A model generated the notes under the pieces. That model made no database searches. It saw only the letters and a program-made list of their open reading frames with translations, and had not been told where the DNA came from. DNA of 11,615 bases from an uncultured Bordetella sp. GTDB lineage: Bacteria > Pseudomonadota > Gammaproteobacteria > Burkholderiales > Burkholderiaceae_B. Within the stretch, counting starts at the first letter, position 1, and each line of letters begins with the position of its first letter. Both the position numbers and the translations under genes were made by a program. Below, piece after piece: positions 4,824 through 11,615 of this stretch. The stretch spans positions 1 to 11,615 of the forward strand of contig CALGFL010000361.1 of assembly GCA_937881145.1 (NCBI GenBank). The letters are read 5' to 3'.

Positions 4824-4832
4824 TGTGGATAA
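4824..4832 (-). other. Perfect DnaA box (region A)
   Basis: TGTGGATAA is the exact complement of the consensus DnaA box TTATCCACA. A second GGATAA hexamer follows at 4837-4842, 10 bp on and in the same orientation, within a poor box (CAGGGATAA). It lies in the long spacer upstream of the MFS gene. Confidence 0.7.
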
Positions 4833-5014: not shown

Positions 5015-5073
5015 TTGTCCACAGAGACCCATCACCACCACCAAATAGATATAAGAAAAACATAGGATAAAAG
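5015..5073 (+). other. DnaA-box-like site followed by AT-rich tract (region A)
   Basis: TTGTCCACA (5015-5023) differs from the DnaA consensus at one base. About 20 bp further on is the AT-rich tract 5043-5073 (only a few G/C bases in about 30), containing another GGATAA hexamer at 5065-5070. Together with the perfect box at 4824 this resembles an origin-like or DnaA-titrating cluster, but the boxes are sparse. The rest of the spacer (4764-5444) has no convincing gene apart from the weak candidate at 5123-5329. Confidence 0.4.
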
Positions 5074-5444: not shown

Positions 5445-6611
5445 CTAGACCTGCCGCAATTTTTCGATGGCGGCGTCCAAGGTATTGTCTTTCTTGGCAA
5501 AGCAAAAGCGTACAAGCCGGTGGTTCGACTGTGGCGCGTCCGGCTCGCGATAGAAGGCCGACACCGGAATGACCGTGACGCCGTGTTTCACGGTCAGCCA
5601 GCGGGAGAAGTCGGCTTCGTTCTCTTTGGAAATTTCGCCGTAGTCCGCCATCAGAAAAAAGGTTCCGGGGCTGGGCAGGACCTTGAACCGGCTGTTGGCC
5701 AGACCCTGAGCCAGGCGGTCGCGTTTGGCCTGGTAGAAGCGGGAGAGTCGCAGATAGGGCTCGGGATCGTGCATGTATTGCGCCAGGGCATACTGCATGG
5801 GCGACGAGACCGTAAAGACGATGAACTGATGGATTTTGCGCAGTTCAGCGCTCATGGCCTTGGGGGCGCAGCAATAGCCGATCTTCCAGCCCGTAGTGTG
5901 ATAGGTCTTGCCGAACGACGAGATCACAAAAGCGCGTTCCGACAATAAGGGACGGGTCGCTAGGCTGCGGTGGATCTGCCCATCGAACACAATGTGCTCG
6001 TAGGGTTCATCGGACAGAAGCAGTACGCCGGTATCGCGGACGATACCCTCCAGGGCATCCAGGTCGGCGTCTTGCAAGATGATTCCCGTAGGGTTGTGGG
6101 GAAAATTCATCATGATCAGACGTGTTCGCGGTGTGATGGCGTCTCGAACACGCTGCCAGTCCACACGGAAGCGAGGATCTTCCTGAGTGGGTGCCCGCAG
6201 GGGAACAGTGACGGGAATGCCTCCAGCCAGGCGTATGGCCGGCAAATACGAGTCGTAGCAGGGCTCGATGACCACGACTTCGTCACCATTGCCAACGACA
6301 GCCAGCACCGCGGCCATCAAGGCTTCGGTGGCGCCGCTGGTCACCGTGATTTCGGTATCGGGATCGTAGGCCCGGCCATAAAGCGTCTGGACTTTTTGCG
6401 CGACGGCCTGGCGCAGAGGCGGTATGCCCGTCATGTAGGGGTACTGGTTGTGGCCGTCGGCCATGGCTTTGGACACCAGCTGGCACAGAGCGGGGTCCGG
6501 ATCGAAGTCGGGAAAGCCTTGGCCCAGATTGATGGCCTGGTGTTCTTGAGCCAGGCGGCTCATGACGGTGAAGATGGTCGTGCCAATATCGGGGAGTTTC
6601 GACTGCAGCAT
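5445..6611 (-). CDS. ybdL: PLP-dependent methionine aminotransferase, YbdL type
   Basis: This is a fold-type I aminotransferase of 388 residues, close to the length of E. coli YbdL, which prefers methionine and aromatic amino acids with keto-acid acceptors. The N-terminus (QSKLPDIGTTIFTVMSRLAQEHQAINLGQGFPDF) strongly resembles YbdL. The active-site lysine is Lys235 in SSFGKTYHTTGWK. Asn173 in FPHNPTG and Asp201 in SDEPYEH contact the cofactor, and Arg368 in VRFCFAKK should bind the substrate carboxylate. The protein is cytoplasmic with no signal peptide. The ATG at 6611 is chosen by family alignment; the Shine-Dalgarno sequence is weak. It is transcribed alone, divergently from the cold shock gene. 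A kynurenine- or glutamine-transaminase-like specificity is possible, since these subfamilies are related. Confidence 0.9.
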   Translation of the reverse strand: MLQSKLPDIGTTIFTVMSRLAQEHQAINLGQGFPDFDPDPALCQLVSKAMADGHNQYPYMTGIPPLRQAVAQKVQTLYGRAYDPDTEITVTSGATEALMAAVLAVVGNGDEVVVIEPCYDSYLPAIRLAGGIPVTVPLRAPTQEDPRFRVDWQRVRDAITPRTRLIMMNFPHNPTGIILQDADLDALEGIVRDTGVLLLSDEPYEHIVFDGQIHRSLATRPLLSERAFVISSFGKTYHTTGWKIGYCCAPKAMSAELRKIHQFIVFTVSSPMQYALAQYMHDPEPYLRLSRFYQAKRDRLAQGLANSRFKVLPSPGTFFLMADYGEISKENEADFSRWLTVKHGVTVIPVSAFYREPDAPQSNHRLVRFCFAKKDNTLDAAIEKLRQV

Positions 6612-6822
6612 GGATTTCAGAAGTGCTTTTGGAATGAGGGACTTAGCCGTGATGATAAGACGCGGCCTCGAGGGTTTGGGTTATTTGGTTCCGCCTTGGC
6701 GATATATCGAAAATGACCTAGGGAAAGTATCTAGTGTCCCATGCCAGGTGGCTGAGTATGCTCGTCCTTGCAGTTGACTCAAGAAGTGCGCAAGTCCGTT
6801 CGGTGTATTGGTTTTGGCGTCC

Positions 6823-6850
6823 TTGATTCATTTGCGTATTTTGTTTTATC
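6823..6850 (+). promoter_or_regulatory. Possible cold-shock gene promoter
   Basis: TTGATT (6823-6828), a 16-bp gap and TTTATC (6845-6850) could be a sigma-70 promoter about 22 bp before the ATG at 6872. The segment 6823-6851 is markedly AT-rich. An alternative -35 (TTGACT, 6774-6779) has no matching -10. The whole spacer 6612-6871 holds no gene I can support; it also contains the 10-bp palindrome CGATATATCG at 6700-6709. Confidence 0.3.
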
Positions 6851-6871
6851 CATCAAGGGCGCTATAGGAAA

Positions 6872-7075
6872 ATGGCAAAAGGTAAAGTCAAGTGGTTCAA
6901 CGCCGATAAGGGTTACGGGTTCATAACGCCCGACGGCGGTGGTCCGGAAGTCTTCGCACACTTTTCAGCTATTCAAGGCCGCGGTTATCGCAGCCTGAAC
7001 GAAGGCCAGGAAGTCGAGTTCGAAGTCAAGGATGGTCCGAAAGGACCCCAGGCGGCTGAAATCAAGCCGCTCTGA
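6872..7075 (+). CDS. Cold shock protein, CspA family
   Basis: The product is a single cold-shock domain of 67 residues, the usual length. It starts [18 protein letters not shown], carrying RNP1 (KGYGFI), and continues with RNP2 (VFAHFSAI). Such proteins bind single-stranded RNA and DNA, melt mRNA secondary structure and can act as transcription antiterminators. The ATG at 6872 follows AGGA very closely (2-nt gap), with AAGGG about 12 nt upstream as an alternative ribosome binding site. Two hairpins follow the stop, the second a good intrinsic terminator. The gene points toward the origin-like region, so the terminator would keep its transcript out of it. Which csp paralogue this is (cspA, cspD and so on) cannot be told from sequence alone. 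Confidence 0.95.
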
Positions 7076-7077
7076 TC

Positions 7078-7096
7078 GCAGGAATCCCGTTCCTGC
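7078..7096 (+). other. First hairpin after the cold-shock gene
   Basis: GCAGGAA (7078-7084) and TTCCTGC (7090-7096) form a perfect 7-bp stem with the 5-nt loop TCCCG, starting 2 bp after the stop codon. No T-run follows. It may protect the 3' end of the short mRNA. Confidence 0.55.
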
Positions 7097-7117
7097 TCGC
7101 CAGCGTCGTCTGGCTGC

Positions 7118-7149
7118 AACGCCCCAAGATCTCACGGTCTTGGGGCGTT
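7118..7149 (+). terminator. Rho-independent terminator of the cold-shock gene
   Basis: AACGCCCCAAGA (7118-7129) and TCTTGGGGCGTT (7138-7149) form a perfect 12-bp stem with an 8-nt loop. A modest T-rich stretch (TTGTCATT) begins at its end. It lies 43 bp past the cold-shock stop codon and 25 bp before the first DnaA-box motif. Confidence 0.85.
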
Positions 7150-7173
7150 GTCATTCCCAGGCTGGAGAAATCA

Positions 7174-7229
7174 TGTGGATAGGCTGTGGATAGGATATGG
7201 ATAAGTCGGGATAACCGTCATGCGGATAG
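7174..7229 (-). repeat. Helically phased array of five DnaA-type motifs
   Basis: The shared hexamer GGATA(A/G) recurs at 7177, 7188, 7199, 7209 and 7224, i.e. at steps of 11, 11, 10 and 15 bp and always in the same direction. Steps of 10-11 bp put successive sites on the same face of the helix, a layout suited to cooperative loading of a DnaA filament. Confidence 0.8.
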
Positions 7230-7471
7230 GCCCGCAATTTTCAGGAAATCTCGTTACTCAGTCCAGGCGGCCGAAGTTGTTCACACGAGGGGTTGGGGAG
7301 GGTGTTTTGGCAAACCTCAGGTTTTCCCCAGGGAAGAGCACCCCGATGCCTGAAATATTCGATGCAGTGCAGCATGGATCGGTGAGTTATTCACAAAGAT
7401 ATCCTCAGGTGATTCTGCTGGAGAGCAAGCTGGAGATGTCGATCTTGCAGATAGGTAGAGACTGTGGATAG
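7174..7471. other. Probable chromosomal replication origin (oriC), DnaA-box cluster
   Basis: Five motifs of the TGTGGATAA type in one orientation start at 7174 (TGTGGATAG), 7185 (TGTGGATAG), 7196 (TATGGATAA), 7206 (TCGGGATAA) and 7221 (TGCGGATAG). The first three differ from the DnaA consensus at one base, the last two at two. Further sites are TTGTTCACA at 7277 (two mismatches), TTATTCACA at 7387 (one) and TGTGGATAG at 7463 (one). Next to mnmG and two parS sites this is the expected place for oriC in this bacterial group. dnaA itself is not in the window. No obvious strongly AT-rich unwinding element is seen inside the cluster. An 83-codon open frame at 7220-7471 has no coding look and is not called. 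Confidence 0.8.
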
Positions 7472-7500
7472 ATCTTTCCCATTAATGGCGAAGACGCCAT

Positions 7501-7516
7501 GGTTTCACGTGAAACA
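7501..7516. promoter_or_regulatory. parS centromere site 1
   Basis: The 14-bp palindrome GTTTCACGTGAAAC (7502-7515) matches the core of the bacterial chromosomal ParB-binding site parS. The flanks (G on the left, A on the right) differ from the 16-bp consensus only at the first base. It lies 30 bp past the last DnaA box and about 93 bp before the mnmG start. Confidence 0.95.
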
Positions 7517-7538
7517 ACGGGATTACCAGGAATTTCAA

Positions 7539-7554
7539 TGTTTCACGTGAAACA
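7539..7554. promoter_or_regulatory. parS centromere site 2
   Basis: TGTTTCACGTGAAACA is a perfect 16-bp parS consensus, with its centre 38 bp from the centre of site 1. Its right end coincides with the position expected for the -35 element of the mnmG promoter, so ParB bound here could affect transcription of the operon. Confidence 0.96.
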
Positions 7555-7577
7555 GCAATCTCCCCAACCTCTATAAT
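7549..7577 (+). promoter_or_regulatory. mnmG promoter
   Basis: TATAAT at 7572-7577 is a perfect -10 element. At the standard 17-bp spacing the -35 position reads GAAACA (7549-7554), matching TTGACA at three of six bases and made of the right arm of parS site 2. Transcription should start near 7584, leaving a leader of about 25 nt before the ATG at 7609. Confidence 0.7.
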
Positions 7578-7608
7578 GAAGACTGATGCTCTTTCATCCT
7601 TGCCCATT

Positions 7609-9528
7609 ATGGATTTCCCTCGCGAATTTGATGTGATCGTTGTTGGTGGCGGTCATGCAGGTACCGAAGCCGCCTTGGCTTCCGCGCGCGCCGGCGCGGC
7701 AACGCTACTGCTCACCCACAACATCGAGACGCTTGGGCAGATGTCCTGTAATCCCTCAATTGGGGGTATCGGCAAAGGGCATCTGGTTAAAGAAGTGGAC
7801 GCCCTCGGGGGTGCCATGGGCATCGCCACCGATGAGGCAGGAATCCAGTTCCGCATTCTCAATAGTTCCAAAGGTCCGGCCGTACGAGCGACGCGTGCTC
7901 AAGCAGATCGCGTCCTATACCGCAAAGCCATACGCGGACGCCTGGAAAATCAACCCAATCTCTGGCTGTTCCAGCAGGCCGTCGATGATTTGATGGTCGA
8001 AGGCGACAGAATCGCCGGCGCTGTGACTCAGATCGGACTCAAGTTCCGGGCTCGTACCGTCGTGCTAACGGCCGGGACTTTCCTTAATGGATTGATCCAT
8101 GTGGGGCTACAGAACTATTCGGGTGGCCGGGCGGGGGACCCGCCAGCCATTTCCCTGGGCGCACGGCTCAAGGAACTCAAGCTGCCTCAGGGGCGACTGA
8201 AGACAGGAACGCCGCCGCGCATCGATGGTCGGACCATCGACTACAGCATTCTGGAAGAGCAGCCGGGCGACATGAATCCCGTCCCCGTGTTCTCGTTCAT
8301 GGGCAACGCCGCCATGCATCCACGACAACTGCCTTGCTGGATCACCCATACCAACAGTCGAACGCACGACATCATCCGTGGCGGGCTGGATCGCTCACCC
8401 ATGTATAGCGGCGTGATCGAAGGCGTGGGCCCAAGGTATTGTCCGTCCATCGAAGACAAGATTCATCGCTTCGCCGATAAAGAATCGCATCAGGTCTTTC
8501 TCGAACCGGAAGGCTTGGATACGCACGAGGTCTATCCCAACGGGGTGTCCACCAGCCTGCCATTCGATGTGCAGCTGGACTTGATCCATTCCTTGCCCGG
8601 CCTCGAGCACGCGCACATACTACGTCCGGGCTATGCCATCGAATACGATTACTTCGATCCTCGCGGGCTCAAGTCCACCCTGGAGACCAAAACCATCTCG
8701 GGCTTGTTCTTCGCTGGCCAGATCAACGGGACGACGGGCTATGAAGAGGCCGCGGCCCAGGGGTTGTTGGCCGGAACGAATGCGGCCTTGCAGGCACAAA
8801 GCAAAGAAAGCTGGACCCCGCGCCGCGACGAAGCTTATCTGGGTGTGCTGGTCGACGACCTGGTCACGCGCGGTGTCACCGAGCCCTATCGCATGTTCAC
8901 CTCGCGCGCCGAATATCGGTTGAGTTTGCGCGAAGACAACGCCGATCTGCGCTTGACCGAAATCGGCCGCAGGCTGGGCCTGGTCGACGATGCCCGCTGG
9001 GATGCATTCAGCCGCAAGCGCGATGCCATCGCACATGAGCTGGAACGCCTGAAGTCCACTTGGGTCAATCCGCGCCTGATGCCGGCCGAAACAGCCGAGC
9101 CTCTGTTAGGCAAGGCGATTGAACGTGAGTATTCACTATCAGATTTACTCAAGCGTCCCAACATCAGCTACGTTGATCTGATGAAAGCCCGGCAGGCCGA
9201 CGGCAGCCTGCTGGCCGGCCCTGGCCTGATTCATGACGGCACGCTGGCCGAGCAGATCGAAATCCAGACCAAGTACGCCGGCTACATCACGCGCCAGCAA
9301 GATGAAGTGCGCAAGCACGCCGAGCACGAACAGCAGCCCATTCCGGCGGACATCGACTACGACGCGGTCACCAGCTTGTCCTTCGAAGTGCGCCAGAAGC
9401 TCAAGGCCCACAAGCCCGAAACGATAGGTCAGGCCGGCCGCATTTCCGGCGTTACACCCGCAGCCATTTCGCTTTTGCTCATCCACCTAAAGCGCCTGCA
9501 CTACGGCGCGCGCAAACAGGCGGCATGA
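7609..9528 (+). CDS. mnmG: tRNA uridine-5-carboxymethylaminomethyl modification enzyme MnmG
   Basis: MnmG (GidA) is the FAD/NADH-dependent partner of MnmE; together they make the cmnm5 modification at U34 of tRNA in the cytoplasm. Length is 639 residues, standard for the family. The dinucleotide-binding motif [11 protein letters not shown] is at 11-21, Cys47 lies in [12 protein letters not shown], and Cys278 is in the signature [12 protein letters not shown]. The second signature [18 protein letters not shown] is also present. The start is set at 7609, where family similarity begins ([15 protein letters not shown]). An upstream in-frame ATG at 7576 overlaps the TATAAT box and cannot be in a transcript from that promoter. 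No Shine-Dalgarno sequence is evident. The gene overlaps rsmG by 4 bp (ATGA) and heads an operon running into parA. Confidence 0.98.
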
Positions 9529-10202
9529 TGCAAAACACCGCGATATCCACCGGCTTCGACAGTCGGTTGGCGCAGGCTTGCCGACAACTCGAATTGCAAA
9601 CGTCAGAGGCGCAGCGCGATAAGCTGCTGCGCTACGTCGAGCAGATGCAACGCTGGAACCGCACCTACAATCTCACGGCGGTACGCGATTGCGGCCAGAT
9701 GCTGGTGCAACATGTGTTCGACAGCCTGGCCGTGGTGCAACCCATCGAGGCGCAAGCCGCTGCGCGGCCGTTGCGCGTCATGGACGTGGGCTCCGGCGCA
9801 GGCCTGCCGGGTGTGGTGCTGGCCATTTTGCATGACCAATGGCAGGTGCAATGCGTCGACGCCGTGGACAAGAAAATGGCTTTCGTGCGCCAGATGAGCG
9901 GCGCCCTGAACCTGCCCAATCTGCAGGCCAGCCATGCGCGGGTCGAAGCATTGCCGCCATCGGGCTGCGATATCGTGATTTCCCGCGCCTTTGCATCGCT
10001 GCTGGACTTTGCTAACTTGGCGGGCCCGCACGTGGGCGAGCAGGGCGCTTTGCTCGCCATGAAAGGCAAGACCCCGCAGGACGAGATCGCCGCCTTGCAT
10101 GCGCAGGGTGTCTGGCACGTGCAGCGCATCGAAACGCTGCACGTGCCCGAGCTCGACGCGCAACGTTGCCTGGTGTGGATGCAACGCGCCATGCAGGCCT
10201 GA
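9525..10202 (+). CDS. rsmG: 16S rRNA (guanine-527-N7)-methyltransferase RsmG
   Basis: RsmG (GidB) methylates N7 of G527 in 16S rRNA using SAM; its loss gives low-level streptomycin resistance in several bacteria. The 225 residues are of normal size. Visible motifs are NLTAVRD (49-55), HVFDSL (63-68), the SAM-binding GSGAGLPG (89-96), the acidic VDAVDKK (111-117) and SRAF (153-156). The ATG at 9525 overlaps the mnmG stop as ATGA, indicating translational coupling; a second ATG at 9528 is an equally possible start. parA follows after 48 bp. Confidence 0.97.
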
Positions 10203-10250: not shown

Positions 10251-11063
10251 ATGACCGCCCCCGTGTCCCAGACCCAGCCGATCGCACAAGTCTTCTGCAT
10301 TGCCAATCAGAAGGGCGGTGTCGGCAAGACGACGACCGCCATCAATCTGGCCGCCGGCCTGGCTACGCAAGGGCAGCGTGTGCTGCTGGTCGATCTGGAT
10401 CCGCAGGGCAATGCCACGATGGGCAGCGGCATTGATAAGAGCACGCTCAAAGGCACGCTTTATCAGGTGCTGATCCGCGAAATGACCATTGCCCAGGCGC
10501 GCGTGCGCTCCGAGGTGGGCGGATACGACGTGCTGCCGGCCAATCGCGACCTCGCCGGCGCCGAGATCGACCTGGTCGAGATGGACGAACGCGAGCGACA
10601 GCTCAAAGGCGCCATTACCGAGGTTGCCGATCAATACGATTTCATCCTCATCGATTGCCCGCCCACGCTATCGCTGCTAACACTCAACGGACTTGTGGCA
10701 GCCCATGGCGTGATCATTCCCATGCAGTGCGAATACTTCGCGCTGGAAGGCCTGTCCGATCTGGTCAACACCATCAAGCGCGTGCATCGCAATATCAACG
10801 ACGAGCTGCAGCTCATTGGCCTGCTGCGCGTGATGTTCGACCCGCGCATGACTTTGCAGCAGCAGGTCTCGGCGCAGCTCGAGTCGCACTTCGGCGACAA
10901 GGTGTTCAAGACGGTCGTGCCGCGCAACGTGCGTCTGGCCGAGGCGCCCAGCTACGGCATGCCCGGCGTGGTCTACGACCGCAACGCACGCGGCGCGCAG
11001 GCCTATATCGCTTTCGGCATCGAGATGATCGAGCGCGTCAAAGCCATGCGCAGCGGTGTTTGA
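10251..11063 (+). CDS. parA: Chromosome partitioning ATPase ParA (Soj type)
   Basis: ParA is a Walker-type ATPase that binds DNA non-specifically as an ATP dimer and, with ParB bound to parS, moves newly copied origins. The 270 residues lack the N-terminal HTH found in plasmid ParA of type Ia, as expected for a chromosomal Soj protein. The deviant Walker A motif KGGVGKTT is at 21-28 (signature Lys21, catalytic Lys26), A' is VDLDPQGN with Asp48 and Asp50, and Walker B is ILIDCPP with Asp135. A clear ribosome binding site (AGGA, 10242-10245) precedes the ATG. Its cognate parS sites are 2.7 kb upstream in the mnmG promoter. A GNAT gene abuts its stop codon, with parB expected beyond the window. 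Confidence 0.97.
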   Translation: MTAPVSQTQPIAQVFCIANQKGGVGKTTTAINLAAGLATQGQRVLLVDLDPQGNATMGSGIDKSTLKGTLYQVLIREMTIAQARVRSEVGGYDVLPANRDLAGAEIDLVEMDERERQLKGAITEVADQYDFILIDCPPTLSLLTLNGLVAAHGVIIPMQCEYFALEGLSDLVNTIKRVHRNINDELQLIGLLRVMFDPRMTLQQQVSAQLESHFGDKVFKTVVPRNVRLAEAPSYGMPGVVYDRNARGAQAYIAFGIEMIERVKAMRSGV

Positions 11064-11615
11064 ATGCAAGCGCATCAACACCTACCGGATGCGGGGCAGA
11101 TCGCCCGCATAGAAGAAGCGGCGCTGAACGCGACGGTCGTGCCCGAGCAGCAGCTCTACAACGGCTGGGTGGTGCGCTGGGCCGATTCGGCGGCCAAAAG
11201 GGCCCGCAGCGTCAACATCCTGGCGCCGTCCACGGTGGCGCTGGACGAGCGCCTGGACTATGTGGCCGGCATCTACAAACAGCATGATCTGCCGCTGCTT
11301 TTCCGGCTTGCCGAAGGCTGTCCCGATTCCACACTGGAGGGCGCCCTCGCGGCGCGGGGCTTCAAATCATTTGGCCATACTTTGGTCATGACCGCGTCCA
11401 TGCGGCACGCCAACGACATCGCCGCGCGGCAAGAGCAGGGCACCAGGCAACTGCGCGCGGTCGACGAGCAGACCTTCGCGGCGCAAGTGGGCCGGCTCAA
11501 GGGCGCCAGCGCACAATACATCGCCGAGCATGCGTTGCGCCTATCCAGCGTGGCCGTGCCCAAGCAGATGCTGATGGCCTATACCGGCCAGGTCTGCGTC
11601 GGCGGAACCGAAAAC
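11064..11615 (+). CDS. GNAT-family N-acetyltransferase, partial (3' end beyond window)
   Basis: The frame starts with an ATG directly after the parA stop (TGA-ATG, no gap) and stays open for 184 codons to the window end. The N-terminal block (RIEEAALNATVVPEQQ, LYNGWVVRWADSAAKRARSVN) fits GNAT-type acetyltransferases that start with a Y-GW-R-KRA-SVN pattern, followed by LPLLFRLAEG and a GFKSFGHTLVM strand. The acetyl-CoA-binding Q/R-x-x-G-x-G/A loop is expected further C-terminal and is not reached. The substrate is unknown. Zero spacing to parA implies co-transcription and translational coupling with the segregation operon. Confidence 0.8.
   Translation, partial: MQAHQHLPDAGQIARIEEAALNATVVPEQQLYNGWVVRWADSAAKRARSVNILAPSTVALDERLDYVAGIYKQHDLPLLFRLAEGCPDSTLEGALAARGFKSFGHTLVMTASMRHANDIAARQEQGTRQLRAVDEQTFAAQVGRLKGASAQYIAEHALRLSSVAVPKQMLMAYTGQVCVGGTEN

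Follow-up and report, generated by a model that had tools for sequence, protein, structure and literature searches.

A chromosomal parS site at a conserved distance from the -10 box of mnmG: a centromere arm as candidate -35 element of its own par operon

How cells set the levels of ParA and ParB from the chromosome is little known. The locus presented here, from a group of beta-proteobacteria, raises the question of whether a centromeric parS site could at the same time be part of the par operon's own promoter, in which case a single sequence would be under two selections, ParB binding and sigma contact; if true, this would amount to a feedback built in at the origin, and to a clear example of a primary chromosome whose par operon regulates itself through parS. 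The stretch of DNA analysed (the window, 11,615 nucleotides) is the entire contig C361 of a 3.0-Mb genome, G000, which is 77% complete. Along it are found, in this order, mnmE, genes for a small exported protein, an MFS transporter and an aminotransferase (these four identities having been assigned by eye), a gene for a cold-shock protein, a DnaA-box-like stretch, two parS sites, mnmG, rsmG, parA and a cut GNAT gene. The features on which the argument turns are the following:

7174..7471, no strand: five DnaA-box-like sites with one mismatch each, possible origin region
7501..7516, no strand: second parS, 15/16, one mismatch
7539..7554, no strand: parS proximal to mnmG, exact 16-mer TGTTTCACGTGAAACA, perfect palindrome, 16/16
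7547..7554, plus strand: right arm of this parS, candidate -35 region, proposed from the conservation of spacing
7572..7577, plus strand: -10 box TATAAT of the mnmG promoter, exact
7582..7586, plus strand: predicted transcription start, at about 7584, placed from the position of the -10 box
7609..9528, plus strand: mnmG (gidA), Pfam GIDA, start set by homology
9525..10202, plus strand: rsmG (gidB), with a 4-base overlap with mnmG
10251..11063, plus strand: parA, with ParA-type ATPase domains, 48 bp after rsmG
11064..11615, plus strand: GNAT acetyltransferase gene, directly after parA, truncated by the contig end

The two 16-mers count as parS against what we take to be the consensus of the site. 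On that basis, the initial annotation, which had described a perfect 16-bp parS at 7539-7554, a second parS upstream of it and a TATAAT at 7572-7577, was right on all three. No further parS is present in the window at up to three mismatches (0.03 expected), and none of 200 shuffles contained two or more sites; a search of the window's genome, at its 77% completeness, for 14-bp parS cores with up to one mismatch returned two, both of them these window sites. The gap between parS and TATAAT in the window is 18 bp if the 14-bp core is taken as the site, and 17 bp if the 16-mer is. In G197 and G217, the two nearest relatives, a second parS core likewise lies 38 bp upstream of the first. The number of sites can be much higher in genomes of the genus g4, such as G224 and G245, where the 1.5 kb before mnmG can hold up to nine cores (0-1 mismatch), the window's genome having two.

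The surroundings of mnmG were compared in a survey of 96 genomes from 27 genera, comprising all 15 members of the window's genus (g1, the window's own genome included), other loci from a homology search, and 60 stretches hand-picked among the matches listed, one of these being a genus member's upstream end; g5, g8, g23, g30, g33, g38 and g42 are among the genera that stand outside this survey and within the searches of 268 genomes described below. With a -10 box counted only when it reads exactly TATAAT, one occurs in the 130 bp that precede mnmG in 87 of the 96 surveyed family genomes and in 5% of shuffled stretches, the nine genomes without it belonging to g12, g24 and g40. The box lies 24-41 bp before the mnmG start in 80 of the 87, and 77-105 bp before it in the other seven (g43, two of g35, and G001). 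The start codon that the longest open reading frame would place at 7576, inside TATAATG, was rejected: homology begins at 7609, and among the 49 surveyed relatives with the heptamer TATAATG, its ATG shares the reading frame of mnmG in 13, which is the chance level, so that a start at 7576 is not conserved. As for the mnmG leader (7578-7608), it has no obvious ribosome-binding site, and a pyrimidine-rich, GCTCTTT-like stretch recurs, by eye, in g1, g4, g6 and g16.

The distance from the 14-bp parS core (up to two mismatches) to TATAAT was 16 bp in 26 of the 96 survey genomes, 17 in 20, 18 in eight and some other value in 33, the remaining nine having no TATAAT; in other words, in 54 of the 96 the parS is located in the promoter at a spacing of 16-18 bp. 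The initial annotation had asked whether the 18-bp gap is conserved in relatives; the spacing there is mostly 16 or 17 bp, the window's 18 standing at the long end of the range. In g4 the spacing is 16 bp in 18 of 19 genomes, the nineteenth having one base inserted in parS, and the leader, measured from TATAAT to the start codon, ranges in these genomes from 30 to 37 bp. The standard deviation of the parS-TATAAT spacing is 0.50 in the window's genus (g1), 0.22 in g4 and 0.00 in g16, and that of the TATAAT-to-start distance is 3.48, 2.65 and 1.25, respectively. The letters of the spacer are 26-40% identical between genera, where composition alone predicts 27.7%, and an identity near the level of composition together with a steady spacing means that the length has been kept, and the letters mostly not. 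When the -10 positions were shuffled between genera, 4.1 of 25 genera fell at 16-18 bp versus the 12.0 of 25 observed, a value that none of 5000 draws reached, in a test that treats genera as independent, even though they share kinship. As judged from these sequences, the link between parS and the -10 box goes beyond what chance would give.

Other spacings are also found: 21-24 bp in g6, which is close to the window's genus, 10-70 in g27, 13 in g31 and in one g20 genome, 46-70 in g43, 31-41 in g35, and 33-122 in single genomes of g10, g13, g14 and g32. None of 80 named Burkholderiales loci is at 16-18 bp; parS and TATAAT stand 13-127 bp apart where both exist, and in 36 of the 80 there is no parS at up to one mismatch within 300 bp. 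In g35 (for example G066, G131 and G162), at least 11 genomes carry CACGTGRAAC-ATGTTC[AG]CTTGGGCAAAA-...-GCATATAAT; the spacing is fixed at 31 bp and the spacer is conserved, and this other way of placing parS relative to the -10 box may hold the site of another protein. Selection for the arm that faces the -10 box was considered and rejected, as no bias is seen among sites of the form GTTCCACGTGAAAC or GTTTCACGTGGAAC with one mismatch and a spacing of 16-18 bp, four genomes keeping this arm and four not. A link between the right arm GTGGAAC and a spacing of 18 bp (5 of 15 at 18 and two at 17, versus 3 of 71 at 18 for GTGAAAC) was also left aside, there being too few genera to use it.

At the level of whole genomes, a pattern search for CACGTGRAAC-N16-18-TATAAT returned matches in 98 of 268 family genomes, from 17 of 43 genera, once per genome, and the reversed control pattern matched in one of the 268. 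All 98 matches lie directly upstream of mnmG, as established for 53 of them in the survey, for 23 by comparison of coordinates, and for 22 by a further check of the locus. With the gap widened to 4-34 bp, the pattern is present in 176 of the 268 genomes and the reversed control in six, and in 98 of these 176 the spacing is one of the central three among 31 values. In a draw of 300 genomes from the order, the pattern matched in four of 10 family members and in one of 290 non-family genomes (G327, matched by pattern). The same restriction is seen when starting from parS: TATAAT stands 15-19 bp downstream of 52 of the 75 mnmG-proximal sites, versus one of the 262 other sites (up to one mismatch) when these are read toward mnmG, and none in the other direction; the sole distal exception belongs to G001, where no other parS is closer to mnmG, and it stands just past the 110-bp limit set for proximal sites. 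What this comparison shows is a fixed distance from parS to the -10 box and its restriction to the mnmG promoter. The arrangement is not universal, since 170 of the 268 family genomes are without it, some because they are incomplete, and a single ancestral origin followed by conservation and losses would fit this distribution equally as well as several origins. As for the central proposal of the initial annotation, which makes parS a part of the mnmG promoter, it is well supported by comparison for part of the family.

Which part of the promoter parS would provide is suggested by the position of its right arm. In the window there are two candidate -35 hexamers, GTGAAA (7547-7552), with 4/6 matches to TTGACA and a spacer of 19 bp, and GAAACA (7549-7554), inside parS, with 3/6 matches and a spacer of 17 bp, and with these the window is a weaker -35 case than its sister genomes. 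A generic promoter scan of 6500-8500 gave no sigma-70 site at a threshold of 9/12, because the -35 matches at only 3-4 of six positions, and this result was not counted against the promoter once the conservation had been seen. In the 54 survey genomes with a spacing of 16-18 bp, the hexamer that scores best 16-18 bp away from the -10 box falls in the right arm of parS, being GTGAAA (4/6) in 44 of them and GGAACA, GAAACA or TGGAAC (3/6) in the other 10; its location inside parS is in part a consequence of the 16-18 bp spacer class, which puts it there, and the informative part is the 4/6 match, a score that some 12% of positions taken at random attain. Where the spacing is different (33 genomes), the best hexamer scores 4/6 in eight, 3/6 in 10 and less in 15. 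From all this we infer that the right arm of parS is used as the -35 of the mnmG promoter.

What such a promoter would transcribe can be read in part from the window and in part from G197, the nearest complete relative, whose mnmG is 94% identical to that of the window. That the operon encodes ParA, as the initial annotation stated, agrees with the ParA-type ATPase domains found in the window, and G197 adds ParB: there the run is mnmG, rsmG, parA, GNAT, parB and an asparaginase gene (L211 4688-7420 holds GNAT between parA and parB), with a gap of 23 bp before parB and an 8-base overlap between parB and the asparaginase gene. By comparison with this closest complete relative, the operon is mnmG-rsmG-parA-GNAT-parB, ParB included. 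No match to the ParB HTH domain was found in the window's own genome (77% complete, the contig stopping ahead of parB), and the contig end may account for this absence; of the two genes near parS, parA is documented in the window and parB in G197. The gene order is wider than the shared promoter, given that parA follows mnmG in 76 of the 80 named loci, none of them at a spacing of 16-18 bp (of the other four, three end too early to tell and one is without parA). The idea that the parS promoter keeps parA in the operon was rejected, as parA comes after mnmG in 42 of the 44 named loci that have parS and in 34 of the 36 that do not, and three of the four exceptions are on contigs with an early end. 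According to a passage of PMC3909081, parAB of P. aeruginosa is transcribed from a weak promoter inside gidB, and a separate parA promoter of this type may exist here, in which case it would dilute the feedback. In one member of the window's genus (G213:C1:1320838-1322753), mnmG is divided between two reading frames, and one of the parts contains a stop.

If we accept this arrangement, the parS proximal to mnmG would be a loading site for ParB, and its right arm, GTGAAAC, would be the -35 contact of the operon. With the -35 inside parS, ParB dimers and the sigma factor could not both use the right arm, so that ParB loading and RNA polymerase binding would be mutually exclusive on it. Once it has bound CTP, ParB moves off parS as a sliding clamp. 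Clamps from the proximal parS and from its neighbour would slide across the -10 region, and the outcome would be a mild, self-limiting autorepression, in which more ParB at the origin-proximal centromere would mean less transcription of the operon of ParA and ParB. ParB probably competes, then, with the transcription of its own operon; that it represses this operon, and how strongly, we infer by analogy. ParB control of the operon, as put forward in the initial annotation, is plausible and has the precedents given below. The whole proposal, in which parS has the dual use of loading ParB and providing the -35 contact of the mnmG-rsmG-parA-GNAT-parB promoter, with a competition that leads to modest repression, is one to which we give an even chance of being correct. 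The broader view, that a centromere arm is a core promoter element in 17 of 43 genera, and that the synthesis of ParA and ParB responds directly to ParB occupancy of the centromere, is put forward slightly more tentatively.

Several known systems bear on this proposal. KorB of the plasmid RK2 represses PkorA from the operator OB, located directly upstream of the -35, and this repression is weak unless KorA locks the clamp, as set out in part of PMC11790492. The likeness consists in the operator of a ParB-family CTP clamp at the -35 of the promoter of its own operon, with repression by exclusion of the polymerase; the differences, as far as that part of the source goes, are that the system is on a plasmid, that it has KorA as co-repressor, that OB is upstream of the -35 and not in it, and that the operator is not the chromosomal parS sequence. 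With regard to what defines this type, a ParB-family site at the -35 of its own operon, the position described here fits by its spacing and by the operon content of G197, the use as -35 being presumed. In P. aeruginosa, as one passage of PMC5521831 has it, loss of ParB or of functional parS raises the expression of the genes beside parS3 and parS4, and an excess of ParB represses PA0011 and PA0013 reporters only when parS is intact. There, as here, a chromosomal parS is in the promoter region of a gene near oriC; unlike PA0011 and PA0013, which in that account are not par operon genes, the gene following the present site begins an operon that holds parA, with a parS arm at its -35 and the spacing kept in 17 of 43 genera. 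The canonical chromosomal ParABS systems near oriC share the parS palindrome and the operon mnmG-rsmG-parA-parB by the origin, but in P. aeruginosa it is recF that holds the nearest parS, said to be about 4 kb from oriC, and the promoters of gidA and parA are described, in the corresponding passages of PMC3909081, as regulated by neither ParA nor ParB. In the open-licence PMC literature we found no report of parS as part of the par operon's own promoter. A ParB site as promoter operator is a known kind of element, and the twist here is a parS of the primary chromosome that apparently acts as the -35 of its own par operon.

An alternative to competition is that the parS arm has been shared as a -35 out of mere economy, with ParB loading briefly and sliding off, and the polymerase not measurably hindered. 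This would account for the same constraint on spacing, and it agrees with statements in PMC7022226 and PMC11790492 that the effects of ParB on nearby genes are often small or absent, the former review including small effects on the transcriptomes of several species. However, loading on the -35 itself differs from spreading over genes, and the repression of PA0011 and PA0013, in the passage of PMC5521831 already cited, acts through a promoter parS. We hold sharing without regulation to be a real possibility, if a somewhat doubtful one. Since the overlap of parS and promoter is symmetric, the effect could also run in reverse, so that the polymerase at the promoter would limit ParB loading at parS, or its spreading from there, and transcription would shape the centromere; this we consider improbable, as in many g4 genomes one masked site would matter little, owing to the several further parS upstream.

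It is a shade less probable still that ParB at parS activates the promoter, in the manner of an activator at about -37 combined with a weak -35. The -35 is indeed weak and the centre of parS is about 37 bp before the predicted start, but the -10 box is a perfect consensus, and the promoter cases with parS (PMC5521831) and with KorB (PMC11790492) are, in the passages concerned, cases of repression. Chance, or a proximity, merely inherited, of two independent elements within a short intergenic region, is the account to which we give least credit: it could appeal to shared ancestry, which makes the genome counts not independent, and to the other distances at which parS is found near mnmG in the named Burkholderiales loci, but it has against it a spacer whose length is kept though its letters diverge, the specificity for mnmG across whole genomes, and the result of the shuffle between genera.

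The initial annotation had further proposed that, as with gidA transcription in E. coli, the mnmG promoter could couple segregation to replication initiation. An origin near this locus is possible, considering that in G197 the GC skew, taken in 20-kb samples, flips at mnmG (negative in nine of 10 samples on one side and positive in eight of nine on the other), and that the window has its five DnaA-box-like sites. The likeness to E. coli oriC is that gidA (mnmG) would here too be transcribed away from the origin, and the difference is that there DnaA and SeqA sites overlap the promoter, with initiation normally unaffected, whereas in the window it is parS that overlaps it (PMC4446571, in the section dealing with gidA). 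According to that section, initiation on the chromosome is not measurably affected when gidA transcription is stopped, unless DnaA sites of oriC have been deleted; moreover, no DnaA box at up to one mismatch was found in the last 1 kb in five of the 15 genus members, and the proposed coupling to initiation, being without support, was abandoned. Two more DnaA-box-like sites, at 4824-4832 and 5015-5023, one of them exact, lie about 2.3 kb from the 7174-7471 cluster, beyond the aminotransferase and cold-shock genes, and given these sites the origin could be in two parts.
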